IMG/VR virus record: IMGVR_UViG_3300032286_000962
Span: 1-62,288 of that record
Length of the DNA: 62,288 nucleotides
From: a virus
Reading direction: 5' to 3' (one strand)
Shown piece after piece: positions 8,131 through 47,746 of this stretch. A program made the translations under genes and the position numbers. The notes beneath the pieces are model-generated. The model ran no database searches. It had not been told where the DNA came from and saw only the letters and a program-made list of their open reading frames with translations. Within the stretch, counting starts at the first letter, position 1; each line of letters opens with the position of its first letter.

Positions 8131-8132
8131 TC

Positions 8133-9960: not shown

Positions 9961-10848
9961 ATGGGCGGAACACCAGAAATTCAAGCGCCAGACACCAAGC
10001 CCATGTGGGCGTCTCTGCAGATGCAGCAGAGCGGTCAGAATCAAGCGATGCAGAATCGTGCTGACCTGCTCAAGTACATGTCTCAAATTTCTCCTGCAGT
10101 TTCCTACACCGACATTTGGGGTCAGAAGGGTGCAGCGAATGTGGCGAAGGACGCTGCGGAAATCAATTATCGAAATCAACAGGCAATGCAGAAGGCGCTC
10201 GATCCTCAAGGATTTCAGATCGCTGAGGATACCCGCAACCGCGTTGCTCAAATGGTTAGCCCAGCAGGTCAGAAGGCGCTGGCGAACCAGCAGTTTGCAC
10301 AGCGCACGTTGCCGGGCATGTACGGCACTGGTCTCGACCCGCGCAGCACGATTTATGGAAGCGGATTGTTCGATTCAAACACGCTTCAGGGGCTACAACT
10401 CCAGCAGCAATTGGCCAATCTTGGTCAAGGATACAGCGCGGCCAATCCAGCTCCGAAAGTTGGCCTTGATCCCGGCATGGTCGCCTCCGTCGCCTCTCAG
10501 GAGGGAGCACGAGCTGCGGATCGTGCGAATGCATTCACACAGAATATCCTCCAAGGCGCTGGCAACCTTCAACAGGGCTACGAGGCTGGAATGAACAACC
10601 TCTACAGCAATATTGGACAAGCGGTGCAGACCAGTATGGCCAATCAACTTGCCGCACAACAAGCAAGCCTAGCTGGACAGTCTCAAACTACAGGATCGAT
10701 GTATCAGGGTCTTGGTGCTCTTGGTGGCGGGATTCTTGGATCCTTCGCAGGCCCACTAGGAACTGCTGCTGGGAGTTATATTGGGAAATCACTTGGTGGA
10801 ATGGCGGGTGGACAAAGTGCAGGACAAGCTACTGGATTTGGAAGATAA
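9961..10848 (+). CDS. Internal virion/ejection-type protein, Gln/Ala/Gly-rich
   Basis: A 295-residue protein starting MGGTPEIQAP, rich in Gln, Ala and Gly, with long helices (residues 20-110 and 180-240) and a hydrophobic Gly-rich C-terminus (LGGGILGSFAGPLGTAAGSY) that could insert in a membrane. This is the usual look of podovirus core proteins released with DNA to form the channel across the envelope. The next two genes share the same style. The role is inferred from composition and place. Confidence 0.6.
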   Translation: MGGTPEIQAPDTKPMWASLQMQQSGQNQAMQNRADLLKYMSQISPAVSYTDIWGQKGAANVAKDAAEINYRNQQAMQKALDPQGFQIAEDTRNRVAQMVSPAGQKALANQQFAQRTLPGMYGTGLDPRSTIYGSGLFDSNTLQGLQLQQQLANLGQGYSAANPAPKVGLDPGMVASVASQEGARAADRANAFTQNILQGAGNLQQGYEAGMNNLYSNIGQAVQTSMANQLAAQQASLAGQSQTTGSMYQGLGALGGGILGSFAGPLGTAAGSYIGKSLGGMAGGQSAGQATGFGR

Positions 10849-16100: not shown

Positions 16101-19100
16101 AAGTTACGATCTCAGCTCCTGAGCTGCTATCGAGCAAGATTCTGCAGAACAAGTATCGCGGACTCGACATCTGGCAAAAGGAGCAGGTGCTCACGATCAA
16201 GGACGACGAAGGAAACGTGGTGCGAGAAGTCGTAGTGCCTCAGTCCGCGTCTCTAAACACGCTTGTCGGACAATACCGACTAGAAGGTGGAATGCTTGTG
16301 GACGAGAACGGAAACAAGATGCAGATCGCTCCTGAGATCGCTGCAGCCAATCTTCCAGACAACACCAACCTCTCTGTTGACCAAAGAATCGCAAGAAATC
16401 CAGACGGTTCTCCGAAGATCCTATCGAATCGAGAGATTCAGGCGCGTGCTAGGAAGCGTGGACAAGTCCTTAGAAACGCCATCGAGGGCGCTGTGGAGGA
16501 CGGATCGACAAACCGAGTCCGACCAGTCGGAGAGGACGAGTACGCTGGGATTCTGAGTCCGAGTCAGATGCAGGCGATCTTGGAACTTCCCAACGACATC
16601 GTGTCTCCAGAGTTGAAGCGCAAGATTGTAGCTTTCAACGAGGTGTGTCTCCGCAAGGACGGAACACGAATGATCGTCGAGTACCAAGCGGCCCTGAAGG
16701 GTGGCAAGTACAAGGCACTGGCTCCAAAGATCCGCGATGTTGTTCCTTTTGGATTCCGTATCACCAAGGACGGAAACTTCTTAGCGACCACAATTTCCGT
16801 AAGTAGAATTTTCGACAAGATCAACGCGTGGGCGAAGCCCAACAGGAACAGGTTGAACCTTTGGAACGGAGACACCAACGCGTTGTGGGAAGACATCATT
16901 CACGTTCTCAAGAATCACCAGAAGGGCGAGCGCGGAGAAGTCGGACTCGACGTTGATCCCGACATGGCGAAGCTCAAGAAGGATCGAATCAACGACATCT
17001 TCAATCTCTTCGACAAGGCCACCGAGGCCAACAATCCCGATCGTTCCGTAAGCAAGACTCGCAAGGGTCAAGACTCAATCGACCGAGTGATCATGGGCAT
17101 GAGGATGGATCGTGTGAATGATTTCGCTGTCTCCAACGCTCAGAAGCTGCCAGTAGATTACGGCAAGATCAAAGAGAACTACATGCCGTACGTGCCTGTA
17201 GATCCAGTCGAGGAAGCAGGTTTCAACTGGCCACCAGAGGTCGAGGACGCAATCGTTCGAGTTAGGTCGGTGCTGGAGAACCCAGAGAACATGCCTACTG
17301 AGGCCAAGCCCGAAGCACCGCTTCCAGTCAACCTCTACGAGTCGGGAACTAGCTTGGAGTCCTTTGGATCTGATTCGCTGAAAGAGATTGCCAAGTACTA
17401 CGGCGTACCTGTCCCAGAGAAAGCTGGCAGAGGCGAGATCATCGACCTCGTTCAAAACCAAAAGTCTGGAGTACAATTCAAGCCAGTGGTGCCCGAAGAC
17501 GGCAAGGAGTCTAAGTTCGCGTTCACGACTTCAACAACTCGCAACGACGAGATAAAGAGGTTGATAGCTAATGGTGACGAAGACGGTATCAGGAACCTGA
17601 ACAGGACTACCATTCTCCACGTTCTCTCGGACTTGAAGAACGTCAACGTGTCGATAGAAGACGCCAAGGGCGTGTATCAGGGCGACAAGGAAATCTCTTC
17701 CATAGTTAAAGTAAGAACCAAGAACGACGAGGACTTGAACAAAGTCAGAAGCAGGCTCGCGGATGCCGCGAAGCTCTTCCAGCAAATGGAATTTTTGGAA
17801 GAGAAATTAAATGGTGGAGACCGAGAGTTGCTCGGTCAGGTCGACGATGAGGGGTACAAGCACATCGGAAGCGCCACATTGTTTACGGACGGCGTTACGG
17901 AGCAGCAGATTGAAACGGCTAGGAAATTGGCTGGCATCGACGGATTAACGCTTGCAGATGGAAGAGTTGAGCTGTATGACAGAGGTGATGATCCAGAATT
18001 CTTCAACAGAGTTGCAGCCTTTGACAGAGCAATCCGACAAGCTGGAGGTATGGTCGCATCGTCTGAAACAGGCGTTGCAGCAGTCAAATCCTACAGTGAG
18101 GATCCGCAACAATACCAAGGCACCATCGGATACGACGACGAGTCGCTTTCTATTCATTCCGCAAAAGGCGAGCGAGACCGACTCAGCACGCCCCTCGTAA
18201 CAAAATTGCTCGGCCTGCTGGGGAGGCCGCTGGACGCCCTAGAAAACGGAAAGAGGTCGTACTTCGAGGCGGTAGACCTGACGCCAAGACAGGTCAAGAA
18301 GCAGGTAGACATAGCGGATAGGTTCAACGACCTGCCAGTCAACGACCTCGACAATCCTCTCGTACAGAAAGCGTACCAACGACTCAGCGAGGAGATTCTC
18401 AAGCAGTACGATAGTCTTGTGGCTGGGCCTGATGGCACGAGATTTACGAGCCAGCTATGGTCTGAGGGCGGAGAGCCCTACAAGTCTTCCGCAGAAGCGG
18501 TCAAGGACATCCAAACGAACAACTCGCTGAAGTTCCTGAAGACAGATCCCACTGTTTTCGGGCCAGAGGGAGTTGACTTCAGCTTCCATCCGCTGCTCGA
18601 AGATAGCGGAAGGAGAGACGCAAACGGAGTTCCCTTGGTCTACAACGATTTGTTCAGGGCCGTCCACGACGCGATCGCACACGGTTTATTCGGCGCTGAG
18701 TTTGGGCCGATCGGAGAGGAGTCCGCTTGGCAGACTCACCTGCGAACCATCGACGATCCTTGGGCTCGCTGGGCATTGACTAGTGAGACGAGGGGTCAGA
18801 ATTCGTACGTAAATTATCGTCGTGAGATGCTCAATGAAAACGGCATGCCGATCAAGAAGGGGGAGGAAGGATACATCCCACTTGAGAAGCGCGGATTCGC
18901 CGATCAGAAAGCTGCGTTGCTCCCTCTCACCGATTCGATGACTGGCAACGCGAAGGTCGACGAGCCCGTCAAAAAGCTGATGGAAGAACTTGGGCCTGAA
19001 GAGTCCATGGGAAGCTACGCTGGGCCAGCGTTCAAGCCAGCAAACATCACTCGTAAAGTCGGAGCTAACGAAGACTTCATCACGATACCCGAAGAGAACG

Positions 19101-35018: not shown

Positions 35019-35091
35019 GAGACCGGGGAATAGAGTCTGGGGAGATCCCAGAACGGGTCAATGTTTGGGCTCCATTTATCACCCCGGTCTC
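35019..35091 (+). ncRNA. Structured RNA-like element, 73 nt
   Basis: GAGACCGGGG (35019-35028) and CCCCGGTCTC (35082-35091) are perfect reverse complements and close a 53-base region that holds an inner hairpin TCTGGG/CCCAGA (35036-35041 with 35047-35052, loop GAGAT). The right part (GGGTCAATGTTTGGGCTCC) may pair further. It lies between the possible ssDNA-binding gene and DNA polymerase, with no T-run, so it is not a simple terminator. It could be a leader control element or a replication signal. Confidence 0.5.
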
Positions 35092-35108
35092 ACTACCAAT
35101 CTCTTTAC

Positions 35109-36860
35109 ATGATCGTTGCATTAGACACTGAAACTTTTTACGACGACGAGGTCTCCATCAAGACACTCGGAACGTGGCACTATCTGCGCCACCCCAAGGC
35201 CGACCTGTACCTGCTCTCGGTAGCAGCCGACAACGGGCTCAGGTGGGCTGGCCACCCAAAGGACTTCGACTGGTCGCAGATCGTCGGGCCTGACGTGACG
35301 TGGCTCTCTCACAACGTCTCCTTCGACTCCATGGTCATCGAGCGGCTGCAGGAGCTCGGACACGCTCCAGAGAGCATCGAGATCGCGGAGTGGGTATGCA
35401 CAGCCGACATGGCCGCGTACCTAGGCCACAATAGAAGCCTCAAGGAAAGCGCCAACAGCCTGCTGGGCGTCGAGATGACGAAGACAGTACGAGACAACAT
35501 GAAGGGACAGCGCTGGGAGGACATGGACGTGTTCTTTCGTGACGACGTGCTCAAGTACGCTCTGGACGACGCGGTTCACTGCCTCAACCTTTACCTGCAG
35601 CACGGCGACAAGTTCGTGGAGCACGAGCGCGAGATCAGCGCCATGACGCGCACGATGTGCTCACGCGGAGTTCCGCTCGACGTTCCAGCTCTCGACAAGG
35701 CGATTACCAAGTTGCAGACGGCTATCTGGCAGGCCAAGCTCGACATCCCATGGGCCGACCGCGAGGCGATCCTATCGCCGCTGGCAGTACGTGCCGAGTG
35801 CGAGAAGGTGGGAATCTGGGCTCCAGCGTCCTTCGCCAAGGGCGACGACGAGGCGGAGCGTTGGGAGGACGAGTTCTCTCACCTGCACCCATGGATCAAG
35901 GCTGTACGTAACTTCAGGCGCGGCAACAAGCACCTGAGCACGCTTGAGACCATGCGGAGTCGCTGCAGGGAGGATGGGACTATGCCATACGGATTGAAGT
36001 TTTTCGGAGCCCACACTGGGCGTGACAGCGGCGACGGCTCGTGGAACGCGCAGAACCTTCCCAAGGGCGAGGTCTTCGACGTCGATGTCCGCAGCATGAT
36101 CAAAGCGCCCGAAGGCTACACCTTCGCGATCGTTGACCTTAGTCAGATCGAGCCACGCGTGCTTCACTGGCTCGCAGGAGATACCAAGATGCTCGAACAC
36201 ATCCGCCAGTGCCCAGACTTCTACGAGGCTCAGGCGCGTGCCATGGGCCTCTGGAGCGGAGACGAGCCGCTGCGTACCGACCCCAAGAAACGCCACCTGA
36301 TCAAGGGATTGAACCTTGGGCTCGGCTACGGCATGGGCGCGAAGAAATTTGCTTCGGTCGCGAATATCCCCACCGACGAGGCGGAGCGACTAACGCGCCT
36401 GTACCGCGTCAAGAACCCGCTCGTGACTAAGCTCTGGAAAGACTTGGAGGAGGTACTACGCAGCACCGCTACGAGCAAGGAGGACAAGAACGCGGAGATC
36501 GAGATGCCTTCGGGTCGCAAGATGACATACCGAAACGTGTCAGTGGATCACGGCGGACTCACCGCTCAGATACCGCGCCAAGGCAAGTTCATGCGTCTAG
36601 GATTTTGGGGCGGCGTCGTTACGGAAAACCTTGTGCAGGCGACCGCCCGCGACGTCTTCATGGACTGCTGTCTTCGCATCGAGGCGCAGGGATTCCCAGT
36701 GCTCATGAGGATCCACGACGAGGTCGTGTGTCAGGTGCCAGTATCTGAGGCCGACGCTAGGCTGCAGCAGATCATCGAAATTATGTCCACGGCTCCAGAA
36801 TGGGCCGAGGGGCTTCCGCTATCCGCCGAGGGATCACTCTCCGACGTCTACAAAAAATAA
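35109..36860 (+). CDS. Family A DNA polymerase with 3'-5' exonuclease
   Basis: A 583-residue polymerase; the Met at 35109 begins MIVALDTETF, placing the exonuclease DxE (D6, E8) at the N-terminus as usual. Exo II is in SHNVSFDSM and Exo III in YALDDAVHCLNLY. Polymerase motif A is AIVDLSQIEPR (about 338), motif B is RHLIKGLNLGLGYG (about 394), motif C is IHDEV (about 535). It has no 5'-3' exonuclease domain, as in T7-type enzymes. It copies the genome with the primase-helicase encoded 600 bases downstream. Confidence 0.92.
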   Translation: MIVALDTETFYDDEVSIKTLGTWHYLRHPKADLYLLSVAADNGLRWAGHPKDFDWSQIVGPDVTWLSHNVSFDSMVIERLQELGHAPESIEIAEWVCTADMAAYLGHNRSLKESANSLLGVEMTKTVRDNMKGQRWEDMDVFFRDDVLKYALDDAVHCLNLYLQHGDKFVEHEREISAMTRTMCSRGVPLDVPALDKAITKLQTAIWQAKLDIPWADREAILSPLAVRAECEKVGIWAPASFAKGDDEAERWEDEFSHLHPWIKAVRNFRRGNKHLSTLETMRSRCREDGTMPYGLKFFGAHTGRDSGDGSWNAQNLPKGEVFDVDVRSMIKAPEGYTFAIVDLSQIEPRVLHWLAGDTKMLEHIRQCPDFYEAQARAMGLWSGDEPLRTDPKKRHLIKGLNLGLGYGMGAKKFASVANIPTDEAERLTRLYRVKNPLVTKLWKDLEEVLRSTATSKEDKNAEIEMPSGRKMTYRNVSVDHGGLTAQIPRQGKFMRLGFWGGVVTENLVQATARDVFMDCCLRIEAQGFPVLMRIHDEVVCQVPVSEADARLQQIIEIMSTAPEWAEGLPLSAEGSLSDVYKK

Positions 36861-36862
36861 TT

Positions 36863-37128
36863 ATGAAAACAGAACACAAACCCGTCTACATGGTCTTCCG
36901 CGTTGGCGGAGGATCTCCATCAGAAATGCACGCAACGCGTGAGGATGCTAGCGAAGAGGCTGTCAGGCTGTGCCACAAACACCCCAGCAACACGTTCTAC
37001 GTGCTGGAAGCTGTGTCCGCCTACTCGTCTGTAGTGAAAGTAGAAAACACTCATTTTAAACCCATTCACGAAAGAAATCGGTGGTGCAGCTGCAACGACT
37101 GCACTTCTTACTACAGCCAGAAACTTTC

Positions 37129-37132
<4 letters not shown>
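36863..37132 (+). CDS. Hypothetical 89-residue protein with CSCNDC
   Basis: A small alpha/beta protein. The first 55 residues look like a strand-helix-strand unit (VYMVFRVGGGSP, DASEEAVRLCHKHP, NTFYVLEAV) and the end has a WCSCNDCTSYYS cluster with three Cys, perhaps a zinc knuckle. It is coupled by ATGA to the deaminase gene. No family recognised. Confidence 0.6.
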
Positions 37133-37452
<320 letters not shown>

Positions 37453-37459
37453 GACCCAT

Positions 37460-39640
37460 ATGAAGTTATTCTCACTGAAGAACCTCGTCACTCACGAGAT
37501 CCTCGAAACGGACGACCAGTACCTAGCTGGCACCGAGAACCCACGCAACCTGCTCGACACGCCACTCAAGACCAAGGAGGAGTACGCGAGCTGGTGCGCC
37601 GACGCCACGACCAGCGGCGTCTTCCTCTCAGCCGCTGAGGGCGTCAATCCTCACGATCGAGTGAAGGACAGTAACCCCGCGAAACGGCTGCACGGCATCA
37701 TCGGCGACTACGACGCGGAGACCGCGATGGACAACATCGACAAGCTCTCGAAGAGCACCGCGTACATGCCAGCCTACGTGATCAGCACGTTCACGCCGGG
37801 CAAGGTGCGCCTCATCTGGGCCTTCGAGGCTCCAGTCAACGTGCTCAACGAGGCGATCACCGAGAAGTTCCTGCTGGAGCTGAACAAGGCGGTGCGTATC
37901 TCGTCGGCGTTGCCCGGCTTCGACAAGAAGTCTTTCGAGCTCAACCAGTACTTCGAGATGGGCACTCAGTGGAGCGCCGTGTCGATCGACGGCAAGATTC
38001 CCTTCCTACCATCCACTCTGCTTGAGACTTGCCTGCTGCAGGGCGCTGAGAAGGCCAAGATACAGCCCACCGACGCTCCACTGATCCCCATCGAGATCGT
38101 CGCAGCCGAGGTCGAGCAGCAGTTCCCCAACCGCATTCAGGGCACCTTCGAGATCGGCAAGAAGCAGCCCCTGTTCTGGATCAACGACGGCATCGAGCGA
38201 CTCGCATCAGTCATCTCGGAAAACGGCATGGTCATCTTCTCAGACCGCGAAGGAACCAACTTTAAGACTTGGCGTCAGATCCTAGGCGGAAAGTTCGTCG
38301 AGCGTTTCGAGCAGGAGCAGACTGGCAAGGCGGCTCAGATGTTCTGGTTCGACGGCAAGACGTACTGGACGAAGCACCACGCCGACAACTTCGTGTACCT
38401 CGCCAAGGAGGACGCCAAGCTGCACCTGCGGGGCGCGGGAGTCAACGATCGACCACAGCGGGGACAGCAGGTCAGCGACGTGGAGCGCGTGCTCATTCAC
38501 GTGCAGACTCAGCGCCGAGTAACCGCAGCCGTTCCCATCCTGTTCTCTCCAGACGAGACCGTGGACTTCGGAGGCGAGCGTTACCTCAACATCAGCAACA
38601 AGCGCGTCACGCAGCCCGCTAGCAGCGCGTCAGTGGATCAGTTCCCATGGCTGCACGACTTCATCACCAACGCGTTTGACGGCGAGATGGACGGCATCCC
38701 AGCGTACGAGTACTTCCTTGGATGGTTCAGGCGGTTCTACGAGTCGGCGCTGAACTGCAGGCCACTGCCGGGTCAGGTGATCATCATCGCTGGCGACGCG
38801 CATACTGGAAAGTCGTTCATCAACAAGTGGGTCATCGGCGAGGCGCTGGGCGGATCCGTAGACGCGGAGCCTCTCCTGATGAAGGAAACCAGCTTCAACA
38901 AGCAGGGCGCTGAGTGCGCTCTCTGGCGCTGCGACGACGCCGCTACAGACGGCAACTGGAAGACACGCGAGATGTTCACCAAGAGCCTCAAGCAGATGGC
39001 CGCAAATCCTAGCCAGCTCTACCAGCCCAAGTTCCGAGACAGCGTCGAGCTACCATTCCTTGGGCGCGTAGTCGTCACCTGCAACACCGATCCCGAGTCG
39101 CTGCGAATCCTGCCAACTCTCGACGGAACGATCCGAGACAAGATCATGCTCTTCAAGCTGCGAGAGGGATACCGCCCGCACTTCCATGGCACCAACTACG
39201 ACAACGAGCAGCGAGTGTGCAAGGAGCTCCCGTTCTTCCTGCGCTGGATGCTAGATCGTGAGATGCCAGAGGGCATCATAGATCCAGTGTATAAGCGCTT
39301 CGGTGTGAAATCGTTTCACCACGCGGAGCTCGTGACGTCGGCTCAGACCACGCAGAGCGAGTACGTGTTCTCGGAGATCTTGGACGCTTGGCTCAACGCG
39401 AAGCGCGAGGAGAAGGTCAAGCAGGTCGAGGTGACTGCCACCGAGCTCAGGACTCAGCTCGCAGCGGTGCTGGGTCAGGGCGCTGATCTCTCGAACTTCA
39501 AGACGGTGAGCATCGGCAAGCAGCTCTCCAAGCTCATGCAGCAGGACATGGTGCGAGAGCTCAAGGGAAAGCGGATGCTCGACGGCAAGGTCAAGTACCA
39601 GTTCGTCTTTACGGACGATCCAGTCGAACAGCCGTTCTAA
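37460..39640 (+). CDS. Primase-helicase (AEP-like plus SF3/DUF5906)
   Basis: A 726-residue replication protein. The N-terminal part holds HGIIGDYDAE (about 79-88), the DxD of archaeo-eukaryotic type primases, and later TFTPGKVRLIW. The helicase part has Walker A AGDAHTGKS (about 444-452), Walker B LWRCDDAA (about 488) and motif C VVVTCNTD (about 535), typical of the superfamily 3 D5-like ATPases. The C-terminus looks like a winged-helix. It probably primes and unwinds at the fork. It has an AC-repeat leader, and a strong terminator follows. Confidence 0.8.
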   Translation: MKLFSLKNLVTHEILETDDQYLAGTENPRNLLDTPLKTKEEYASWCADATTSGVFLSAAEGVNPHDRVKDSNPAKRLHGIIGDYDAETAMDNIDKLSKSTAYMPAYVISTFTPGKVRLIWAFEAPVNVLNEAITEKFLLELNKAVRISSALPGFDKKSFELNQYFEMGTQWSAVSIDGKIPFLPSTLLETCLLQGAEKAKIQPTDAPLIPIEIVAAEVEQQFPNRIQGTFEIGKKQPLFWINDGIERLASVISENGMVIFSDREGTNFKTWRQILGGKFVERFEQEQTGKAAQMFWFDGKTYWTKHHADNFVYLAKEDAKLHLRGAGVNDRPQRGQQVSDVERVLIHVQTQRRVTAAVPILFSPDETVDFGGERYLNISNKRVTQPASSASVDQFPWLHDFITNAFDGEMDGIPAYEYFLGWFRRFYESALNCRPLPGQVIIIAGDAHTGKSFINKWVIGEALGGSVDAEPLLMKETSFNKQGAECALWRCDDAATDGNWKTREMFTKSLKQMAANPSQLYQPKFRDSVELPFLGRVVVTCNTDPESLRILPTLDGTIRDKIMLFKLREGYRPHFHGTNYDNEQRVCKELPFFLRWMLDREMPEGIIDPVYKRFGVKSFHHAELVTSAQTTQSEYVFSEILDAWLNAKREEKVKQVEVTATELRTQLAAVLGQGADLSNFKTVSIGKQLSKLMQQDMVRELKGKRMLDGKVKYQFVFTDDPVEQPF

Positions 39641-39822: not shown

Positions 39823-40257
39823 ATGAGCATCAAGTACACCGCAACCTACAACGGACAGAAGTTTGTTCGCCGCTCCAAGCGCGACGCTTCACGGCCCTAC
39901 ACCCACTGCATCATCGCCCGCAAGAGCGAGTCATACTACAATCCGTTTGACCTGTCCCGTGAGATTGAGAGCCTCGAATACGCTCTGAGCAACGTCTGGA
40001 AGAAGTACTACCCTGACAACAGCCCTGACAGAAATCTGTCCATCCAGAACGCCCGCTACACCAAGCTGGCCAACACCCCAGCCGACGAGTACCTGCAGGA
40101 GTGTCTTGACCGACGTCTGGAAAATTACTCGGAGATCGACTTCCAGAAGTACCACATCATCGCTTGGGCGGGACGCCCCGACCTCGCCATCAAGCAAGTC
40201 GCTGAAATCAGCACGCACTCCGAATGGAGCGACGTCCGCGCCGTAGCTGCAGAATAA
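39823..40257 (+). CDS. Hypothetical early protein
   Basis: A 144-residue protein with AAAGGA 14 bases before its ATG. Residues 1-35 are beta-rich and basic (KYTATYNGQKFVRRSKRDASR), residues 45-70 a helix with LEYALSNVWKKYYP, then further helices. No domain is recognised. It is the first gene after promoter copy D. Confidence 0.65.
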   Translation: MSIKYTATYNGQKFVRRSKRDASRPYTHCIIARKSESYYNPFDLSREIESLEYALSNVWKKYYPDNSPDRNLSIQNARYTKLANTPADEYLQECLDRRLENYSEIDFQKYHIIAWAGRPDLAIKQVAEISTHSEWSDVRAVAAE

Positions 40258-40282
40258 CCCATCAACCCAAGGAACCACTCCA

Positions 40283-40507
40283 GTGAAGCTCAACAAACGC
40301 ATCATCGACCGCGCTGTACGCCCTTTGGGCGTGCAGATCCAGCACGAGCGCGGCTCAGGCTACTTCTACTTCACCACGCTCGGCGAGGACGCCCACCAAG
40401 TCGGCGAGTCGGTCTACGTCTGCTACTACGATCAACTGACTCTGCAGCAGTGGGAGAGCGAGGCCGAGCTGGCTGTACGCTTTGAAACTGAAAACCCAAA
40501 TTTTTAA
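40283..40507 (+). CDS. Small conserved-type early protein
   Basis: A 74-residue protein starting at GTG after AAGGAACCACTCCA. The layout GVQIQHERGSGYFYFTTLG then SVYVCYYDQLTLQQWE recurs in small phage and plasmid proteins with no assigned function. It lies in one operon with the gene before it. Confidence 0.65.
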   Translation: MKLNKRIIDRAVRPLGVQIQHERGSGYFYFTTLGEDAHQVGESVYVCYYDQLTLQQWESEAELAVRFETENPNF

Positions 40508-40560
40508 AATTAATTGTTTACAACCGAACCCGATTCGCTATTTTAAAACTCGAAAGTCAA
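40508..40560 (+). promoter_or_regulatory. Repeated early promoter module, copy E
   Basis: TTTACA (40517-40522), 16-base spacer ACCGAACCCGATTCGC, TATTTT (40539-40544). The downstream block is GAAAGTCAACA rather than GTCAGTAA, so this copy is the most diverged there, but its -10 and spacer are closest to a sigma70 ideal. Confidence 0.7.
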
Positions 40561-40577
40561 CATCAACACCCAACACC

Positions 40578-40784
40578 ATGACCAACAACACACAATCGAT
40601 CGTCGTCACGATCAACACCATCAACGACGCGTTCCTCTTCCCATCTCCAGACTTGGAGGTGGCAAGGATCCTACGGGATCTAGCGGATCGCATCGACGAC
40701 GGGCACACTCCATCGTTCCTGTACGACGCCAACGGAAACGTCACTGGTAACGTCGCACTCTTCAACCAACCATCCAACATCTAA
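40578..40784 (+). CDS. Small hypothetical early protein
   Basis: A 68-residue protein with an A/C-rich leader. It has SIVVTINTINDAFLF, then EVARILRDLADRIDDG and YDANGNVTGNV. The phrase AF..P..EVARILR.LADRI recurs in small phage proteins. No function is known to me. The Met at 40482 upstream lies before the promoter and is not used. Confidence 0.65.
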   Translation: MTNNTQSIVVTINTINDAFLFPSPDLEVARILRDLADRIDDGHTPSFLYDANGNVTGNVALFNQPSNI

Positions 40785-40795
40785 CACACACGACC

Positions 40796-41248
40796 ATGGG
40801 CTACACGCACTACTACAAACTAAACAGGGCCGCGATTACGCCAGAGGAACGCGCCACGGGCTTCAAGCTCGCCGCCGAAGAGATCAACCGCATGAAGCTG
40901 TACCTGCCAAAGGACATCAAGATCAGGGGAGGACTCGGCCACGGCGACGCCGTTATCAACGAGGAAGAGATCTGGTTCAACGGCGACGACAAGTACGACC
41001 TCGACCACGAGACGTTCCACGTCAAGCGAGACAACGACGCTCTGGAGTCGATCGGCTTCTGCAAGACCGCACGCAAGCCATACGACGTGCTCGTGTGCTG
41101 CGCCCTGATCAGTCTCAAGCGCCACCTGCGTGGAGCATTCGACTTCACGAGCGACGGAACGCGCAGCGACTGGGCCAGCGCCATCGCGTTCTACAACGCC
41201 AACACGAACGGACACCACGGCACCAACAACACGACTCACCTCTCATGA
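40796..41248 (+). CDS. MGYTHYY-type conserved protein
   Basis: A 150-residue protein starting MGYTHYYKL, with GGLGHGDAVI in the centre and FCKTARKPYDVLVCCALISL then SDGTRSDW. The MGYTHYW start and FCKT.R.PYD are hallmark phrases of a family widespread in bacteria and phages with no defined function. The C-terminus is Asn/Thr/His-rich. It is coupled by ATGA to the next gene. Confidence 0.7.
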   Translation: MGYTHYYKLNRAAITPEERATGFKLAAEEINRMKLYLPKDIKIRGGLGHGDAVINEEEIWFNGDDKYDLDHETFHVKRDNDALESIGFCKTARKPYDVLVCCALISLKRHLRGAFDFTSDGTRSDWASAIAFYNANTNGHHGTNNTTHLS

Positions 41249-41520
41249 ACGCACCAACACGACACAAGCGCGGCGAACTCAGTCCCTGCGGAACGCTGCG
41301 ATTCTGGCAGTACCAAAAGTACGTGCCCAAGAAGACTGGCAAGCCCTGCGAGCGCTGGATACCAGTCGAGAACTACGAGCGGTACTCGAAGCAAGTCGCG
41401 TTCAACAACACGCTTGGATCCGCACGATCCGATTTCATCAAGTCGCAGCAGGCTAAGATCAAGGCGAAGCGAAGCGCCAAGAATACGATTGACCCAGTCG
41501 GCTCGACTGAGATCAAATGA
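41245..41520 (+). CDS. Small basic protein
   Basis: A 91-residue protein coupled by ATGA to its neighbour. It is basic with GELSPCGTLRFWQYQKYVPK, two separated Cys, and a Lys-rich helix (FIKSQQAKIKAKRSAK). It probably binds nucleic acid; no family recognised. A large inverted repeat follows two bases after its stop. Confidence 0.55.
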   Translation: MNAPTRHKRGELSPCGTLRFWQYQKYVPKKTGKPCERWIPVENYERYSKQVAFNNTLGSARSDFIKSQQAKIKAKRSAKNTIDPVGSTEIK

Positions 41521-41521
41521 C

Positions 41522-41592
41522 GTTTTCGCCTTCGGCTAGGTTCTAACGAAACAAACGTCTCGTGGATCTGACTCCCTAGCCGAGGGCAAAAC
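41522..41592 (+). ncRNA. Long-stem structured element, 71 nt
   Basis: The left arm (41522-41540) pairs with the right arm (41575-41592) over 18 bp with one bulged C and one G-T pair; the core GGCTAGG/CCTAGCC is perfect. The 34-base loop contains ACGA/TCGT. It lies in an 79-base gap between two genes and has no T-run. Either a small RNA, an RNase III site, or a DNA palindrome used as a protein target. Confidence 0.55.
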
Positions 41593-41599
41593 TTTATCA

Positions 41600-41707
41600 A
41601 TGAAACCCAAGATCAAAGCGTGCCTACCCACATGCGCCAAGTGCGGACGTCTCGCACCAGTCGCCGTGAAGACGAACAGGTGCATCAACTGCGACAAGAC
41701 GAAATGA
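41600..41707 (+). CDS. 35-residue zinc-ribbon micropeptide
   Basis: The ORF starts 7 bases after the structured element and ends in an ATGA overlap. C12/C15 (CAKC) and C28/C31 (CINC) form a full four-Cys knuckle in only 35 residues, with Lys around it. Size, Cys spacing and coupling support a real gene. Probably a nucleic-acid or protein-binding effector. Confidence 0.6.
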   Translation: MKPKIKACLPTCAKCGRLAPVAVKTNRCINCDKTK

Positions 41708-41820
41708 ACTGGATCCCACTATTACAATGCTTCGGCGCTGGAGCCTTCGGCATGCTCGCCATGTTCGTGGCCATTTGCTTGATCCCGGAGATCGAGGACT
41801 TTTTTAAGAAAAAGAAATGA
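41704..41820 (+). CDS. 38-residue membrane micropeptide
   Basis: The ORF is coupled at both ends (ATGA in, ATGA out). One hydrophobic span with Gly (LLQCFGAGAFGMLAMFVAIC) is followed by EIEDFFKKKK, so the basic tail is probably cytoplasmic. Similar small membrane proteins in phages can alter host envelope or be superinfection factors; this is inference. Confidence 0.55.
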   Translation: MNWIPLLQCFGAGAFGMLAMFVAICLIPEIEDFFKKKK

Positions 41821-41999
41821 ACCACCCACAGACACCCAACAACGAGGTCGCAAGGCTCCGTGAGCTTCTGAACCGAGCGATAAAGATCCAAGAAGAGAAG
41901 TGCACCTCATGCCGTTGCTACCATTGCGACGCGCTAGAGATGGAGCTTGAAATCATCAAAAGAGAAACCAACCAACTTAACAGCATACCTAATACTTAA
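41817..41999 (+). CDS. 60-residue coiled-coil with Cys cluster
   Basis: Coupled by ATGA. A short helix VARLRELLNRAIKIQEEKC is followed by CTSCRCYHC (C29, C32, C34, C37) and another helix. The VARL..L motif recurs in the protein at 42963, so the two share a coiled segment. Possibly one zinc site. Confidence 0.55.
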   Translation: MNHPQTPNNEVARLRELLNRAIKIQEEKCTSCRCYHCDALEMELEIIKRETNQLNSIPNT

Positions 42000-42003
42000 T
42001 AAA

Positions 42004-42369
42004 ATGAATACAGATAAAGGAATTAACCTTGGAATTGCTCTACGACGGATATTTGAAATCGCAGAATGGCTAGATCTCCGAGCGATAGTGCTTGATAAAA
42101 GCGACGCTGAAACGCTTCCAAAATTGAGAGCTGAACTTGCACAACTGAAAACCCGACTCGCCCCCGCGCCAGAGGAACCCTGCAAGCACGAAACCAAAAA
42201 CCTCATGCTCCTTGGCTCCCATTGGCATTGGTGTAATCGGTGTGGGTCGGCTCAACGATTGGTTGACGGGAAGCCTTTTGGAAGCTGGAAAGTGCCAGAG
42301 GAAACCCAAGACGGGGCAATGATGGACGAGTGGTACGGAGGCTTCTCAAAGATCGAAAAAACCAACTAA
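42004..42369 (+). CDS. Hypothetical protein with LAPAPEEP and Cys motifs
   Basis: A 121-residue protein; the Met at 42004 follows TAATAAA. Residues 1-50 are helical, then comes the phrase LAPAPEEPCKHE, also present in the protein at 42963, and a C/H-rich part (HWHWCNRCGSAQRL). It likely binds one zinc. The shared linker suggests duplication within this block. Confidence 0.55.
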   Translation: MNTDKGINLGIALRRIFEIAEWLDLRAIVLDKSDAETLPKLRAELAQLKTRLAPAPEEPCKHETKNLMLLGSHWHWCNRCGSAQRLVDGKPFGSWKVPEETQDGAMMDEWYGGFSKIEKTN

Positions 42370-42376
42370 TAGAACT

Positions 42377-42721
42377 ATGAAACGAAAAGAAGTCAGGAAT
42401 GCAATTCGGATTCGCACAACCCCCCGCAATGTCGATGGTCACCAAACTGTAATCGGGGAAGTCACGTTTGGAGTCTCCGTTATTGCTGATGTGCGAGCCT
42501 CGGGGGCTATGGCTATCGCCACGGAAGAAATCAAGAGAAGGATTGAGGAAAGGCTCTTTAATGAAACAGGCGAGGAGATCATGGAACTCATCTGGGAGCT
42601 CAAAGGGGATATTGCCTTGGAATGCAGGGCCATGCGTAAAATTATTTTCAAAAAGCTGGATCGGATCGTGGATCTTATCGCTGGCCGCGAGGAGGAGACT
42701 GAAATGGAGGACGGGGAATGA
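42377..42721 (+). CDS. Hypothetical 114-residue helical protein
   Basis: An N-terminal beta-rich part (RIRTTPRNVDG, VIGEVTFGVSV) is followed by long helices (ATEEIKRRIEERLF, EIMELIWELKGDIA) and a very acidic tail. No domain recognised. It is coupled by ATGA to the following micro-gene. Confidence 0.55.
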   Translation: MKRKEVRNAIRIRTTPRNVDGHQTVIGEVTFGVSVIADVRASGAMAIATEEIKRRIEERLFNETGEEIMELIWELKGDIALECRAMRKIIFKKLDRIVDLIAGREEETEMEDGE

Positions 42722-42804
42722 AGATAACATTCTGGAATCCACTACCATTGATCTTTATTGGATTTATCCTAGGAGCTTTAACCTCACACTTATTCTGGAA
42801 ATGA
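42718..42804 (+). CDS. 28-residue membrane micropeptide
   Basis: ATGA-coupled at both ends. The whole peptide is one hydrophobic span (PLPLIFIGFILGALTSHLFW) with Lys at each end. Context of serial coupling supports translation, but size limits certainty. Confidence 0.45.
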   Translation: MKITFWNPLPLIFIGFILGALTSHLFWK

Positions 42805-42881
42805 ACCCCAACGAAATCCGTTCGCAGATTCGCAAACAATTAGACCTACTAAACCACAACCCGAACAATAAACCCTCCTAG
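42801..42881 (+). CDS. 26-residue polar micropeptide
   Basis: Begins in an ATGA overlap with the membrane micropeptide. The helix NEIRSQIRKQLDLL is followed by an Asn/Pro-rich end. It ends just before the TTTACT repeats. Uncertain but consistent with the coupled train. Confidence 0.4.
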   Translation: MNPNEIRSQIRKQLDLLNHNPNNKPS

Positions 42882-42916
42882 TTTACTGAAACACCGCAAG
42901 TTTACTCACCAGTAAA
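42882..42916 (+). repeat. TTTACT repeats and small palindrome
   Basis: TTTACT occurs at 42882-42887 and 42901-42906, preceded by AG in both, and the second copy forms a palindrome with AGTAAA at 42911-42916 (TTTACTcaccAGTAAA). It lies in the only sizable gap of this block before the gene at 42963. It could be an operator. Confidence 0.45.
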
Positions 42917-42962
42917 AAGCTACACAACCAATAAAAACATCAACCCCGCATTCAATAAGAAT

Positions 42963-43610
42963 ATGAACACCGAACAAATATACCAAATGAACCACGGCAC
43001 CTCACCAACGCAAGGCTTCTATGTTTCAAAATCGGAGTTTCTTGATCTCAAACGATCACTCTCCGAACAAACCAGCGAGGTCGCAAGGCTCAAAGAGCAA
43101 AACCAAAAACTCCGAGAGATTGCGGATTTTGCTGTCGATGCACATCAACACTCTGGAATGCGCTACAAACTTAAAACAGAACTAGCCCGACTCGCCCCTG
43201 CGACAGAAGAATCAGATCATATCGAGCAAGACCTCGAAATGGTTCACCCAATCATGAACTGCCAAGTCTGCGGAGAGTTCCAAGGACATGGGCATGAGTG
43301 CGCCCCCGCGCCAGAGGAACCAGTTATCCAAGATTCTCGGATAACTGAACCCTGTAAATGCGGATATGGGCCGCATTGGAATGAGTGGAATGGAGTTTGT
43401 TCTGATTGCGGACGCACCCGACGCCCGTTGCCAAAGCAGGAGGAGATGCCGCTGGAGAAAGATCAAGTGATTGATTACTGCCGCAAGTGGTCAGACAAAC
43501 ACCTTGCAGATCACGGCAAGGAGACATTTTACTCCCGCCTTGGGCTTCTGGTGGACTTTGCCACCGACCTATACCGCGACGAGATCCAGAAGCTCAAGGA
43601 GGCCAAATGA
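42963..43610 (+). CDS. Zinc-finger-rich protein with coiled coil
   Basis: A 215-residue protein. Residues 25-60 form a coiled coil (LKRSLSEQTSEVARLKEQ), followed by Pro-Ala-Glu linkers (ARLAPATEES, CAPAPEEP), a CQVCGEF..HEC finger, a CKCGYG...CSDCG finger, and a helical C-terminus. Probably a nucleic-acid or host-protein binder. Shares linker and coil phrases with its neighbours. Confidence 0.6.
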   Translation: MNTEQIYQMNHGTSPTQGFYVSKSEFLDLKRSLSEQTSEVARLKEQNQKLREIADFAVDAHQHSGMRYKLKTELARLAPATEESDHIEQDLEMVHPIMNCQVCGEFQGHGHECAPAPEEPVIQDSRITEPCKCGYGPHWNEWNGVCSDCGRTRRPLPKQEEMPLEKDQVIDYCRKWSDKHLADHGKETFYSRLGLLVDFATDLYRDEIQKLKEAK

Positions 43611-43792
43611 GCACCAACACGACGAGCTCCGACAAGTGCCCCACGTGCGGCGCTGTTTGGTCAGGCGGAATTGGAAGACATAATTGGCTCGATCGGGCCC
43701 CAAAAGCTGAGGCCGAGCTTCAAGCGCTGCGCCTCGAACTTGCTGAGACGCGTCGGCTTCTCGACGAAATAAGATCGTCGTTGGAGAGCTAA
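43607..43792 (+). CDS. Small Cys-pair coiled-coil protein
   Basis: A 61-residue protein coupled by ATGA. It opens with DKCPTCGAVW, one zinc knuckle half, and continues as a coiled coil (AEAELQALRLELAETRRLLDEI). It may dimerise and share a zinc site between two chains. Confidence 0.55.
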   Translation: MSTNTTSSDKCPTCGAVWSGGIGRHNWLDRAPKAEAELQALRLELAETRRLLDEIRSSLES

Positions 43793-43793
43793 C

Positions 43794-43946
43794 ATGACGC
43801 TGATTCAGCGCATCAGGCTGCAGAAATCCTTCGCCGACTGGTGCCGATTGCACCGAGTTCCAGCCAAAAAGTACCCAGCCTACGCCGCTCGTGTCTTCGC
43901 CATCTACAGCGCCGTGATGCTGCGCGGCGGTTGTCGCAGCAAGTAA
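43794..43946 (+). CDS. 50-residue basic protein
   Basis: The ORF starts one base after the previous stop. It is Arg-rich with helices (QRIRLQKSFADWCRLH, AYAARVFAIYSAVMLRGG). It is the last gene before the 1.1-kb gene-free region. Probably a DNA-binding helix bundle, but unassigned. Confidence 0.55.
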   Translation: MTLIQRIRLQKSFADWCRLHRVPAKKYPAYAARVFAIYSAVMLRGGCRSK

Positions 43947-43982
43947 CGTGCAATTAATTCAAAGGATAGTGATTCACTGATT

Positions 43983-44000
43983 CAGTGCATCAGTGCCGCA
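43983..44000 (+). repeat. 18-bp repeat, copy 1
   Basis: CAGTGCATCAGTGCCGCA. Copies with two mismatches lie at 44643-44660 and, inside a coding gene, at 48711-48728. This copy also forms a CACTGA-T-TCAGTG palindrome with the bases just upstream. Confidence 0.6.
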
Positions 44001-44110
44001 AAGTAACATTGTATTATCGGAAGAGTTAAGTGGGAGTGGAGTGAAAATGGAGATGGAAAAGTCATCTCCCCTACAGCTAAGTGTTTAAACAGCAGACAAT
44101 TACGAACAAA

Positions 44111-44239
44111 GAAGTGGAGAAGTGGAGAAGTTGGGGAAATTGTCATGGCTGCGGCGGCGCGGCGCGGCGGCGGCGGCGGCGTCTATCTATATATATTTTC
44201 CCTACAATATTTTATATTATTACTCCACTTCTCCACTTC
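44111..44239 (+). repeat. 17-bp inverted repeat around GGC tract
   Basis: 44111-44127 (a doubled GTGGAGAA) is the exact reverse complement of 44223-44239. The 95-base interior holds a pure G/C run of GGC and GCG units (about 44151-44181) followed by A/T-rich TATATATA DNA. This is an extruding-cruciform or protein-binding layout. Confidence 0.7.
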
Positions 44240-44642
44240 CACTGGCCGTTGGCCCTGTGTTTAAGCGGCTGCGCGGCGGAGTGGAGATGAAAAAATCAAG
44301 TCCACTTTACCCCACTTCCCTCTGTACAACTCCACTTCTCGGTCTCGTAACTTCTGCAGCGTTCTCCTTTGTATCAGTGTACCATGGTTTAGTGCTTCAG
44401 GGTAACAGAGTAGAATCTCGACTTCGTCTCTGTTCAGGCGTCTCGATCCTGCGTCGAACGCTTTCTCTGATCGCGCCGCTCCCTTCTGTGCCGCTTTGCC
44501 GCGCCGCTAAGGCACCCTGCGCTCATCTTCAGTGTCGAGCTGATACATTGTCGCCAAAGCGCTGGGCAAACTCGATGGCGGGGCTTTAAACGAGTCGGCG
44601 TTTGTCGGCGTAATGTTAAATTAATTAAATGCCGCATTGTCG

Positions 44643-44660
44643 CAGTGCATCGGTGACGCA
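44643..44660 (+). repeat. 18-bp repeat, copy 2
   Basis: CAGTGCATCGGTGACGCA, differing at two positions from the copy at 43983. It is flanked by two CGCATTGT units (44634 and 44657). Confidence 0.55.
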
Positions 44661-44907
44661 TTGTTGCTGCTTCTAACATGATGTTAATGAATTATCGATG
44701 TTATGATAGCGAGCTGAAGTCTTGAATTACTCTGTTCTAACCTGATAATAATCCATAACTTCAGATAACCTTTGTCATGGATACTTCTCGCATATTCGTA
44801 TCACTATTGCACTACTTACTACCTAAGTGCATCATCTACACAGGGTTACATATATTAATGCACCATGCCTCTCGACGACTCGGCGACGGGGTGCCTCTCG
44901 ATCGGAC

Positions 44908-44985
44908 GGGGGGTGGGGGGAGGAGGAGGAGGGTGGGTGGGTAGGGGGAGGAGGAGACGCGGCCCGCCCGCCGCCGCCGCCCCCC
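44908..44985 (+). other. G-quadruplex-type tract followed by C-rich tract
   Basis: The + strand carries GGGGGG, T, GGGGGG, three AGG steps, then GGGTGGGTGGG and TAGGGGG by 44948, a canonical intramolecular G-quadruplex pattern. It is followed by a C-rich stretch (44963-44985) able to pair with it or form an i-motif on the same strand. T-runs at 45005-45010 and 45021-45028 follow. It sits about 100 bases before the small terminase gene. Confidence 0.8.
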
Positions 44986-45076
44986 TCAAAAGGGAGGTGG
45001 CCAATTTTTTAGAAATAATTTTTTTTGAATTGCGTTGTCCTACCGATTCGACATAGGTTCTCCAACTGCTATCATC

Positions 45077-45637
45077 ATGCCAGTTTTAGAAAACCTCACA
45101 CACGAACGATTCTGCTCCCTCATCGCCGAGACTGGCGATACGGCGGCTGTTGCATACGGAAAGGTCAATCCGACGGCCAAGGCTCCAAAGGTCTACGCGA
45201 GCAATCTGATGAAGCGTACGGATATCATTTCGCGCATCGCGGAGATCCGTACCGAGGTGGCCACCCGTAGCGTCGCCGTCATTGGCCGCAAGCGGGAGCT
45301 CCTGCGTCTCATGATCGAGGGGGCGGTGCCCACCAAGGTCGTCAACCGCGCCAACGGCGTGGAGGAGACCTACGACAAGCTCGCAGCCATCGCGCTCGAC
45401 GCAAAATTGGCCGGGGAGCTCTCGGACAACATCCACCTCACTGCGAACAGCGAACTGAAGCTGAACTTCACGGTTCGAGACCGCGATAGCAAGACCCTTG
45501 ATGGATCAGGCGTCATGGACGCAGTACTCATTCCAGACGCAAACGACGAGCCGCTAGCGCTTCCTGAGCCAGAGTCAGACGTTCAGTTTGCCCACCTTGT
45601 AGATGACGAACCCACAGCCGAAGACACCAGCGCGTAA
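45077..45637 (+). CDS. terS: Terminase small subunit
   Basis: A 186-residue protein. It begins PVLENLTHERFCSLIAETGD, with the HTH region including AAVAYGKVNPTAKAP and ASNLMKRTDIISRIAEIR typical of the terminase_2 family of DNA-recognition subunits. A helical middle and an acidic C-terminus (DDEPTAEDTSA), which contacts the large subunit in relatives, follow. It overlaps the large-subunit gene by 35 bases. It should recognise packaging sites, plausibly in the repeat region just upstream. Confidence 0.8.
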   Translation: MPVLENLTHERFCSLIAETGDTAAVAYGKVNPTAKAPKVYASNLMKRTDIISRIAEIRTEVATRSVAVIGRKRELLRLMIEGAVPTKVVNRANGVEETYDKLAAIALDAKLAGELSDNIHLTANSELKLNFTVRDRDSKTLDGSGVMDAVLIPDANDEPLALPEPESDVQFAHLVDDEPTAEDTSA

Positions 45638-47489
45638 CGTAAGCCACGCCCTCAAGCTCGCGGAGGAGATCCGCAAGCAGGTTGATAGGGACGAGGAGAG
45701 GGGGATCCTCTACGGCGCTAGCCACATCCTGCGCCACGCTACGGCCAACGCCAACAACGTCGTCCTCGATATTCCCAAGGCCAAGGCTATTGTACTGCAA
45801 TTTGTACAACACCTGCTCGACAAGAATCAGTTCGAGGCTGCGGCCACGATCCTATGGGGGTCGGAGGTGTACGACTGGAGGCCAGCGTCCGCTCAGGACA
45901 CGTGGCGCTGCCTGTTCAAGTACGACAAGCTGCTCATTCAGGGCGCAGGTGCCATGGGCAAGTCGTTCAACGGCGCGGCGTGGTTCTACCTAGATTGGCT
46001 CAGAGATCCTTTCTACACCTGTATCAAGGTAATATCGCTCACCCGTGAGCACGCGGAGCGAAACATCTACGCGCACATCAAAAATTTCCATCGATCGGCG
46101 CTGGTCAAACCAGAGTTCCCGAAGGGGGAGGCGCTAGTCACATCGATTCAGGCCAACGAGGATTCAAAACAGGGAATTCACCTAGTCGCAATTCCTCGTG
46201 GAGACAGCGGAGCGGGAACGCTGCGCGGATTCCATCCTGCACCACGTTTTGGAAAGGCGCATCCAAAGTACGGACGGCTGTCTCGGATCAGGGTTGTACT
46301 GGACGAGGCGGAGGAGATACCGGGCGGGGTGTGGGAAGGCGTCAACAACATCGCATCGTCCATGGACGACGAGCACTTTGCGGGGCACATCAAGATTCTC
46401 GGCGCGTCGAACCCGAAGGACAGGACTAGCGACTTCGGCGCACGCTGCGAGCCCAAGAGCGGTTGGGCCAGCGTAGACTGCGAGGACGACTTCGAGTGGA
46501 CAAGTCGCGACGGCTTCAGGGTACTTCGCGTCGATGCATCAAAGTGCGAGAACGTCATCGAGAAGAAGATCGTCTACGCTGGTCTTCAGACGTACGACGG
46601 CTACATGAACTACGCGAATCGGGGTCACACGGCGGAATACTTCACGATGGCACGCGGGTGGTTCCCAGAGGAGGGCATCGCCATGGCCGTCATGACTCCC
46701 TCGATGCTCGACAACGCCCTAGGAACCGTTCGTTTTATCGGGCCAGTGGTTCCCCTAGCCGCGTTCGATCTAGCGCTTGAGGGCAACGATAGCGTCGTCT
46801 GCAGCTACGGACGCTTCGGGCTATCCGACGGCTATACTCCGCAGTCTGGAAAGTTTATTCCGTACGATAGCCCCAAGACTGTCCTGCAGCTGGATTCTCA
46901 GATCACGTTCCCCAAACGCGCCACGCTCGAACAGACGACCGCGATCATCAAGTTCTGTCAGCAGATGAAGATCAGTCCCAACTGGCTGTGCGTCGATCGA
47001 ACTGGCAACGGATCAGGAATCCACGATGGCCTCTGCACGCTCTTCGGGGAGGAGGTGCTGGGGGTGAACTATTCGTGGGCCGCGACCGACTCGCGCATCT
47101 TGGGAGACGACTCGCAGTTGGCGAACGAGCTCTACAGCGGAGTGGTCACCGAGCTGCTCTTCGGACTCGCGAAGTACATCGAGTTTGGATACCTGAAGAT
47201 CTCACCCGGCTTCCGAACCGAGGATCTCATCCGTCAGGCCACGGGTAGGAGGTACAAGCAGAAGGGCAAGGGACTCGTGCGCGTGGAGGCCAAGGCGGAG
47301 TACGTCAAGCGTACACGCAGCAAGTCGCCAGACGCACTCGACTCACTATCGCTGCTGGTCTTCCTCATGCGTCAACGCTCAGGCGTCGCAGCCGAGATGG
47401 TCGTCGATAAGCCAAAAGGAAAAGTCATCCGCGAACGCCGATTGGAAAGTTTGGTGGACGCCATGTCCTATGTTGACATGTCGGAATGA
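45603..47489 (+). CDS. terL: Terminase large subunit
   Basis: A 628-residue packaging motor. Walker A is GAGAMGKS (about 113-120), Walker B VVLDEAEEIP (about 232), with the coupling motif region GASNPKD. The nuclease half shows Asp residues in AAFDLALEGND (about 388), CVDRTGNG (about 463) and SPDALDSL (about 577). It cuts concatemeric DNA and pumps it into the prohead through the portal encoded downstream. Confidence 0.9.
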   Translation: MTNPQPKTPARNVSHALKLAEEIRKQVDRDEERGILYGASHILRHATANANNVVLDIPKAKAIVLQFVQHLLDKNQFEAAATILWGSEVYDWRPASAQDTWRCLFKYDKLLIQGAGAMGKSFNGAAWFYLDWLRDPFYTCIKVISLTREHAERNIYAHIKNFHRSALVKPEFPKGEALVTSIQANEDSKQGIHLVAIPRGDSGAGTLRGFHPAPRFGKAHPKYGRLSRIRVVLDEAEEIPGGVWEGVNNIASSMDDEHFAGHIKILGASNPKDRTSDFGARCEPKSGWASVDCEDDFEWTSRDGFRVLRVDASKCENVIEKKIVYAGLQTYDGYMNYANRGHTAEYFTMARGWFPEEGIAMAVMTPSMLDNALGTVRFIGPVVPLAAFDLALEGNDSVVCSYGRFGLSDGYTPQSGKFIPYDSPKTVLQLDSQITFPKRATLEQTTAIIKFCQQMKISPNWLCVDRTGNGSGIHDGLCTLFGEEVLGVNYSWAATDSRILGDDSQLANELYSGVVTELLFGLAKYIEFGYLKISPGFRTEDLIRQATGRRYKQKGKGLVRVEAKAEYVKRTRSKSPDALDSLSLLVFLMRQRSGVAAEMVVDKPKGKVIRERRLESLVDAMSYVDMSE

Positions 47490-47517: not shown

Positions 47518-47588
47518 CACGGGTTCGTCTAACGGTAGGATCCCAGCTTCATACGCTGGGGATGGGAGTTCGATTCTCTCACCCGTCA
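47518..47588 (+). tRNA. tRNA with CAT anticodon (Met or Ile2)
   Basis: All arms are present: D-arm GTCT/GGAT with A14, G18, G19 and A21, anticodon stem CCAGC/GCTGG with loop TTCATAC, 4-base variable loop, and T-arm GGGAG-TTCGATT-CTCTC. Acceptor positions 2-7 pair but 1-72 is C with C. Anticodon CAT means Met, or Ile if the first base becomes lysidine. It lacks the three G-C pairs of initiators and has an elongator-type T11-A24 pair. No CCA is encoded. Confidence 0.85.
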
Positions 47589-47672: not shown

Positions 47673-47746
47673 TACCCTGTAGTGTAATGGTAACACTTCA
47701 GTTTTTGGCACTGACATTCATGGTTCGAGTCCATGCGGGGTAGCCA
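47673..47746 (+). tRNA. tRNA-Gln (TTG), with encoded CCA
   Basis: Acceptor TACCCTG pairs with CGGGGTA, D-arm GTGT/ACAC with GG, anticodon stem TCAGT/ACTGA with loop TTTTGGC giving TTG, T-arm CATGG-TTCGAGT-CCATG, then G73 and CCA. U1-A72 is a known glutamine tRNA feature. It would read CAA and CAG, which the Gln-rich ejection proteins use heavily. Confidence 0.9.

Follow-up and report, generated by a model that had tools for sequence, protein, structure and literature searches.

A candidate replication origin of opposed G-rich octamers around an AT-rich block accompanies the SF3 helicase gene of uncultivated phages

The window, i.e. the entire linear virus record of 62,288 bp (an uncultivated phage contig with genes almost all on the + strand), contains a repeat core at about 44028-44337 that is most probably the origin at which the phage, with its SF3 helicase (37460-39640) as initiator, begins replication. 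This reading draws on a layout conserved among relatives, the turnover of the repeats, the co-occurrence with the SF3 helicase and an out-of-sample check, on a statistically unusual anatomy of the classical origin type, and on the predicted helicase fold, the divergence of its winged helix and the parallels with the iterons of SaPI Rep and Cch2. The first-pass annotation had suggested a packaging signal, an origin, or both; the same comparisons favour the origin and speak against packaging as far as the repeat core is concerned.

The replication genes at 31-40 kb encode a DNA helicase, a Cas4-like PD-(D/E)XK nuclease, a family A DNA polymerase (35061-36860, + strand), which belongs to the same replication module as the proposed initiator, and the SF3 helicase with DUF5906 itself (+ strand; Pfam E 1.7e-8, along with structure models and Foldseek matches). 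They are followed by small variable genes at 40-44 kb, the gap at 43947-45076 and, both on the + strand, the genes of the small (TerS; 45077-45637; PHROG 51, E 8.1e-5) and the large terminase subunit (TerL; 45603-47489; PHROG 2, E 5.3e-6). The small genes between the helicase and the candidate origin (39823-43946) are hypervariable, none of them being found in G005 or G024 and few in G003, and likely represent a cargo hotspot. Neither TerL nor the helicase protein matched INPHARED, the helicase did not match PLSDB, and the gap DNA gave no similarity match to INPHARED phages. Thus, annotated relatives were not usable for comparison.

Further observations concern the remainder of the window. The genes for tRNA-Met(cat) (47518-47588) and tRNA-Gln(ttg) (47673-47746) are located immediately 3' of the large terminase gene, a single ORF of 2,835 aa (13115-21622) occupies about 14% of the genome, and one of the 46 window proteins matches the Erv1/Alr sulfhydryl oxidase family (PF04777, E 2.3e-6), which is unusual in a bacterial virus. 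The GC content at fourfold sites is approximately 0.27-0.5 across much of the post-terminase half and 0.5-0.7 in the replication half and beside the terminase, a trend shared by G002, G003 and G005. The contig G014 (the contig of L047; 71,431 bp) carries two large terminase genes in the same orientation and 62 kb apart (69281-71143 and 6634-8475), whose products are about 71% and 65% identical to that of the window; it is either a chimeric assembly or an end-to-end fusion of two related genomes.

The absence of genes over 1.13 kb, noted from the sequence at first reading, was confirmed. When a codon-usage gene caller is combined with the listed ORFs, no stretch of the genome without genes is longer than 43947-45076, which is non-coding in the relatives as well. 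The gap contains eight ORFs of 49-155 aa, none of which is conserved across the relatives: their matches are partial, several run into stop codons or frameshifts, and the protein identity does not exceed the DNA identity. The remaining long gaps left by the gene caller hold conserved ORFs. Among them, the second gap at 36861-37459 was rejected as a gene-free region, as it contains a conserved, deaminase-like ORF of 97 aa and is free of repeats.

Several features that had been listed for the gap are statistically unusual. Two GC-only runs, of 31 nt at 44151 and of 28 nt at 44958, exceed all others in the genome, compared with a maximum of 20 nt in 100 Markov shuffles, whereas the AT-only runs, listed alongside them, turned out to be of ordinary length (17 nt in the gap versus 20 nt elsewhere in the genome). 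The 17-bp inverted repeat (44111-44127/44223-44239) is perfect; it is the only pair in the window with arms of at least 15 nt and a spacer of 15-220 nt, and no such pair occurred in 30 shuffles. The GTGGAG/CTCCAC units likewise hold up, since six of the 11 AAGTGGRG octamers of the window, where about 3.5 would be expected, are clustered within 230 bp of the gap.

Read along the + strand, the core is composed of direct octamers, a GC-only block, an AT-rich block, the octamers in inverted orientation and further copies. The outer left copies (44028-44069, + strand) comprise AAGTGGGAGTGGAG at 44028 and a GGAGATG..CATCTCC hairpin at 44049-44069; G005 and L007 have AAGTGGGG/CCCCACTT pairs at this place. 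The left iterons GAAGTGGA GAAGTGGA GAAGTTGG (44111-44134, + strand), with a period of 8 and a degenerate third copy, provide the first arm of the inverted repeat. They precede the GC-only block (44151-44181), the longest of the genome, the site of which is GC-rich in L008 and G024 and G-rich in G005 and L007, and the AT-rich block with TATATATA (44182-44222), the presumed unwinding element, which is AT-rich at the matching place in the positive genomes. The right iterons CTCCACTT CTCCACTT C (44223-44239, - strand) form the second arm; the two arms are complementary without a mismatch and occur nowhere else in the genome. A single forward copy GGAGTGGAG (44278-44286, + strand) follows a GCGGCTGCGCGGC stretch, and a lone forward copy at the matching position was also detected in L008, G024, G005 and L007. 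The right iteron cluster (44300-44337, - strand) consists of the three reverse copies GTCCACTT, CCCCACTT and CTCCACTT and has equivalents in the relatives. As in iteron-type origins, several short repeats are located beside an AT-rich region, and the same replicon encodes a candidate initiator, the co-occurring SF3 helicase with its predicted winged helix.

Relatives with a TerL identity of 96-97% retain both the sequence and the layout of the core; at 82-84% the repeat letters differ and the layout is retained. The repeat reads AAGTGGGG in L010, TGCAGGGGC in L008, where it surrounds a GC block and TATATATTAAATTTATTTTT, and TGCATGGAG in G024, which has perfect arms of 21 bp that are 98 bp apart; the arm spacing is 95 nt in the window and 100 nt in L008. 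Across the genomes, the versions AAGTGGAG, AAGTGGGG, TGCAGGGGC, TGCATGGAG, GGTGGAT, GGGAGTG, GTGAGGG and GGTAGGG were detected, and within a genome the copies in both orientations switch letters together. Such a concerted change of many copies in both orientations is expected of sites bound by one protein that shifts its specificity. The first-pass annotation had proposed to compare the gap among relatives and to count a lack of repeat conservation against a functional role. In this comparison the layout proved conserved and the repeat letters did not; as judged from the aligned genomes, the layout is the conserved trait and a letter-by-letter comparison of the repeats would refute the element falsely. 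In G024, a second inverted repeat, ATACATGACTTGCATCA, with a spacer of 57 nt and a different octamer (ACTTGCAT), is located at 10275-10365 (TerL on the + strand), 0.4 kb after the main element.

Across the genomes compared, the element is associated with the SF3 helicase rather than with the terminase. It was searched for as an AT-rich 35-mer flanked by an opposed G-rich 7-mer occurring at least four times, the demand for G-rich repeats being a trait learnt from the first cases; 30 shuffled genomes gave no match. The strict rule detected it in 12 of 14 helicase-bearing genomes, and a relaxed setting (AT threshold 0.74) raised this to 13 by adding G003, in which the element is also visible in the alignment; as the 14 genomes represent few lineages, these counts are not independent events and overstate independence. 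In all 13 positive genomes the element is located 3' of the helicase gene at a distance of 0.3-6 kb, which amounts to 0.3-0.8 kb in four genomes and to 4.5 kb, behind the small variable genes, in the window. Relatives with a TerL identity of 69-74% lack both the SF3 helicase and the element, the strict rule finding it in none of seven long contigs of helicase-less terminase relatives. The relaxed setting gave one weak match in the helicase-less G006, and G004 showed one extra match at the strict setting.

A search with the helicase led to a second phage group (group B), whose helicase is about 45% and whose TerL is 25-28% identical to that of the window. In this group the element, with the repeats GGTGGAT, GGGAGTG or GGGTGGAT, follows the helicase gene on its 3' side at a distance of 0.3-2.7 kb. 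The terminase, where present on the contig, is at least 12 kb away (12-17 kb) on the opposite strand, distances being measured on closed circles where the contig ends overlap. The position directly before the small terminase gene, part of the original description, is therefore valid for the window's clade and not outside it. The rule was kept fixed for genomes fetched later, with helicases 47-60% identical to those of group B, and three of these four were positive: G033 with GTGAGGG, G034 with GGTAGGG and G035 with GGGGGAT/GGGGTGGAGAT; no element was detected by the finder in the fourth, G032 (57.7 kb), which does encode the helicase. New genomes beyond group B were found only with the SF3 core as query, the group B helicase query finding none. 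No element was seen near the helicase in a further group, mostly fragments, with a helicase identity of about 33%.

The full-length helicase model reached a mean pLDDT of only 41, with the N-terminal part below 50, and we therefore relied on the focused model of the C-terminal residues 380-726 (pLDDT 80, pTM 0.70). The best Foldseek match was the C-terminal region of the NrS-1 PrimPol (6k9c; E 8.7e-9, probability 1.00, TM-score 0.57), followed by the ASFV PrimPol, SaPI PriRep1 (7pds, E 2.1e-6) and poxvirus D5/E5, and the papillomavirus E1 and SV40 T helicases were also among the matches; the sequence itself had no match among PDB chains. According to this model, the fold class would be that of known or proposed initiators. 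Residues 632-717 (approximate limits) are predicted with good confidence to form a C-terminal winged helix. Where the repeats of two clade members differ, this domain shows an identity of 0.46-0.59, compared with 0.78-0.83 for the SF3 core, and in members with the same repeat its identity is 0.91-1.0. This pattern, which is confounded with overall divergence, fits a putative specificity domain, although the quicker change of the winged helix could represent ordinary domain drift. The N-terminus of the helicase is variable, too, and a comparison of the window, G005 and G024 revealed no clear segment whose similarity tracks that of the repeats.

In the proposed mechanism, the C-terminal winged-helix domain of the helicase would bind the G-rich octamers, and their opposed arrangement across the core would allow one helicase assembly to be loaded per side. 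The AT-rich block would melt, the GC-only block possibly acting as a stiff border, and the helicase rings would move onto the single strands, on which synthesis may be begun by the family A polymerase of the phage or by the N-terminal half of the helicase, should this be a primase. Against the origin reading, the GC skew at fourfold sites is uniformly negative in four genomes and keeps its sign across the gap, so that base composition gives no hint of replication leaving it in both directions; one-way replication, late recombination-dependent replication or a transcription-driven skew would fit. As a doubtful extension, the helicase and the origin might form a self-contained module with rapid iteron turnover in concert with the winged helix, related phages in one host population keeping mutually incompatible origins and the period-8 arrays acting as a second, equally fast-changing binding array.

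These degenerate period-8 CANTGNNN arrays are located on the + strand at 43967-44014, a place conserved in L003, L005 and L006, and at 44375-44413 and 44635-44666. The gap contains three of the four such arrays of the window, with shuffled genomes having none or one each, and the two 18-bp repeats described earlier (43983 and 44643) do exist, but as parts of these arrays. Arrays of this type are enriched in the intergenic sequence of the window's clade; the CAGGGTNN versions of some group B genomes border the core, with others located elsewhere in those genomes. Two unrelated contigs (L112/L122/L146/L166 and L142/L156/L157) have similar arrays between many of their genes. The octamer-array pattern was also considered as a clue to the host in all viral contigs and bacterial genomes and rejected, yielding mostly unrelated exact microsatellites from many phyla; similar microsatellites are common in bacteria. 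The non-repeat block CTAACA..GTTAATGAATTA..; ..CATAACTTCAGATAACCTTTGTCAT (44673-44790) is conserved in the window's clade and was matched separately in L007 and in L010, L011 and L013. We propose this block and the period-8 arrays as putative accessory elements of the origin module. The block ahead of the small terminase gene (44903-44990), first G-rich and then C-rich, was confirmed: with 37 G in 50 nt it holds the maximum of the genome, but it is lineage-specific and absent in L007. It folds no better than shuffles (z -1.5) and is possibly a terminator or structured DNA.

If the gap were a packaging initiation site (pac or cos), with repeats bound by the small terminase and a cut made there by the large subunit, its position should be tied to the terminase genes across the relatives, which is not the case for the core. 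The gap does adjoin these genes in the window's clade, and tandem repeats resemble known pac sites. However, group B has the core on the opposite strand and at a distance from the terminase, the core is absent from seven terminase relatives without the helicase, and in L006 and L008 extra sequence or small genes separate the gap from TerS. Contig ends are not enriched at the gap (of 80 contigs, 36 start up to 3 kb upstream of TerL and 35 end up to 3 kb downstream, a symmetric distribution), nor do full-length contigs end there. Since the end overlaps of 123-205 bp in G002, G003, G005 and the three long group B genomes lie at differing positions, their assemblies are circular or permuted. This fits headful packaging, which may begin in the remainder of the gap, and short terminal repeats are also conceivable. 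Packaging initiation as the function of the gap therefore seems improbable, and a packaging role of the repeat core unlikely; the terminase-proximal remainder may have such a role.

An operator cluster or centromere, in which a regulator or partition protein instead of an initiator would recognise the inverted repeats, could look alike in its direct and inverted arrays, and promoters could sit in the AT-rich part. Considering that no ParA/ParB, integrase or repressor families were found among the 46 window proteins, that promoter-like sites are not enriched (3 versus 1.5 expected) and that the element co-occurs with the helicase, we regard this as quite improbable. A slighter chance still is given to an origin elsewhere, with the repeats serving only for initiator titration or copy control. 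Iterons can control copy number and the skew does not change at the gap, but the finder yields one credible cluster per genome and the AT-rich core would be needless for pure titration sites. Least probable appears a structured RNA or transcription-control hub (a long hairpin or terminator) between early and late operons, despite a fold of 44100-44245 far better than that of shuffles (z -6.1) and a G/C-rich hairpin that leads into a T-run ahead of TerS: such stability comes with any perfect inverted repeat, an Rfam search of the window detected the two tRNAs and no other family, copies in both orientations outside the hairpin would be needless for an RNA, and the gene order of group B differs.

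The origins of uncultivated phages are seldom located. With the replication-origin reading, a single rule (opposed G-rich repeats and an AT-rich core 3' of the helicase) finds a candidate origin in 13 genomes with differing repeats, and about eight natural helicase/repeat pairs become available for testing origin choice by ring helicases and the evolution of their specificity. Moreover, proximity to the terminase is not evidence for a packaging site. In the literature searched, no mapped natural phage origin was found for helicases of the DUF5906/NrS-1 class.

Among the better-known systems, the origins of the SV40 T antigen and papillomavirus E1 combine SF3 helicases with short repeats beside an AT tract. 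Both proteins recognise DNA via an N-terminal domain (PMC7581432). The candidate DNA-binding domain described here is C-terminal. The ori and crr of the satellite phage P4 carry short octamer-like iterons and replication requires these two cis sites. P4 thus resembles the window in having a helicase initiator with octamer-like iterons, but no second strong cluster was found here. In the P4 alpha protein the initiating helicase and a primase are fused (PMC7145576).

In SaPIs, the iteron origin comes immediately after the gene of the Rep helicase, whose C-terminal domain recognises it; for Cch2, a helicase of SCCmec, an AAGTG iteron is essential (PMC7581432). The window shares with SaPI Rep/PriRep and Cch2 a helicase of the D5/SF3 class that serves as initiator, here a proposed role, and binds DNA through a domain at its C-terminus, here a predicted one, as well as a multi-repeat origin 3' of the helicase gene (PMC7581432), here a candidate. 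Unlike these Staphylococcus elements, the genomes described here are full-size phages of about 57-70 kb; SaPIs are satellites without a full phage gene set, whereas the 62-kb window has its own terminase and DNA polymerase. Further differences are the extra GC-rich block, the period-8 arrays and, in the window's clade, the location of the candidate origin 4.5 kb from the helicase, beside the terminase.

The NrS-1 PrimPol (gp28), the best structural match to the helicase region, is likewise phage-encoded and of similar size (718 versus 726 aa), and judged by its modelled fold the window's protein would also possess a C-terminal ring-forming SF3 helicase. The NrS-1 enzyme depends on an 8-nt template sequence for priming, present in two copies in its genome (PMC7102993), in contrast to the multi-copy array here; furthermore, the window also encodes a family A polymerase, and an N-terminal PrimPol half is only putative. 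Being part of a full-size phage and having only a putative primase half, the module of the window belongs to neither the SaPI nor the NrS-1 type. By analogy, its element may work like a SaPI Rep origin, and its helicase is predicted to fold like the NrS-1 PrimPol.
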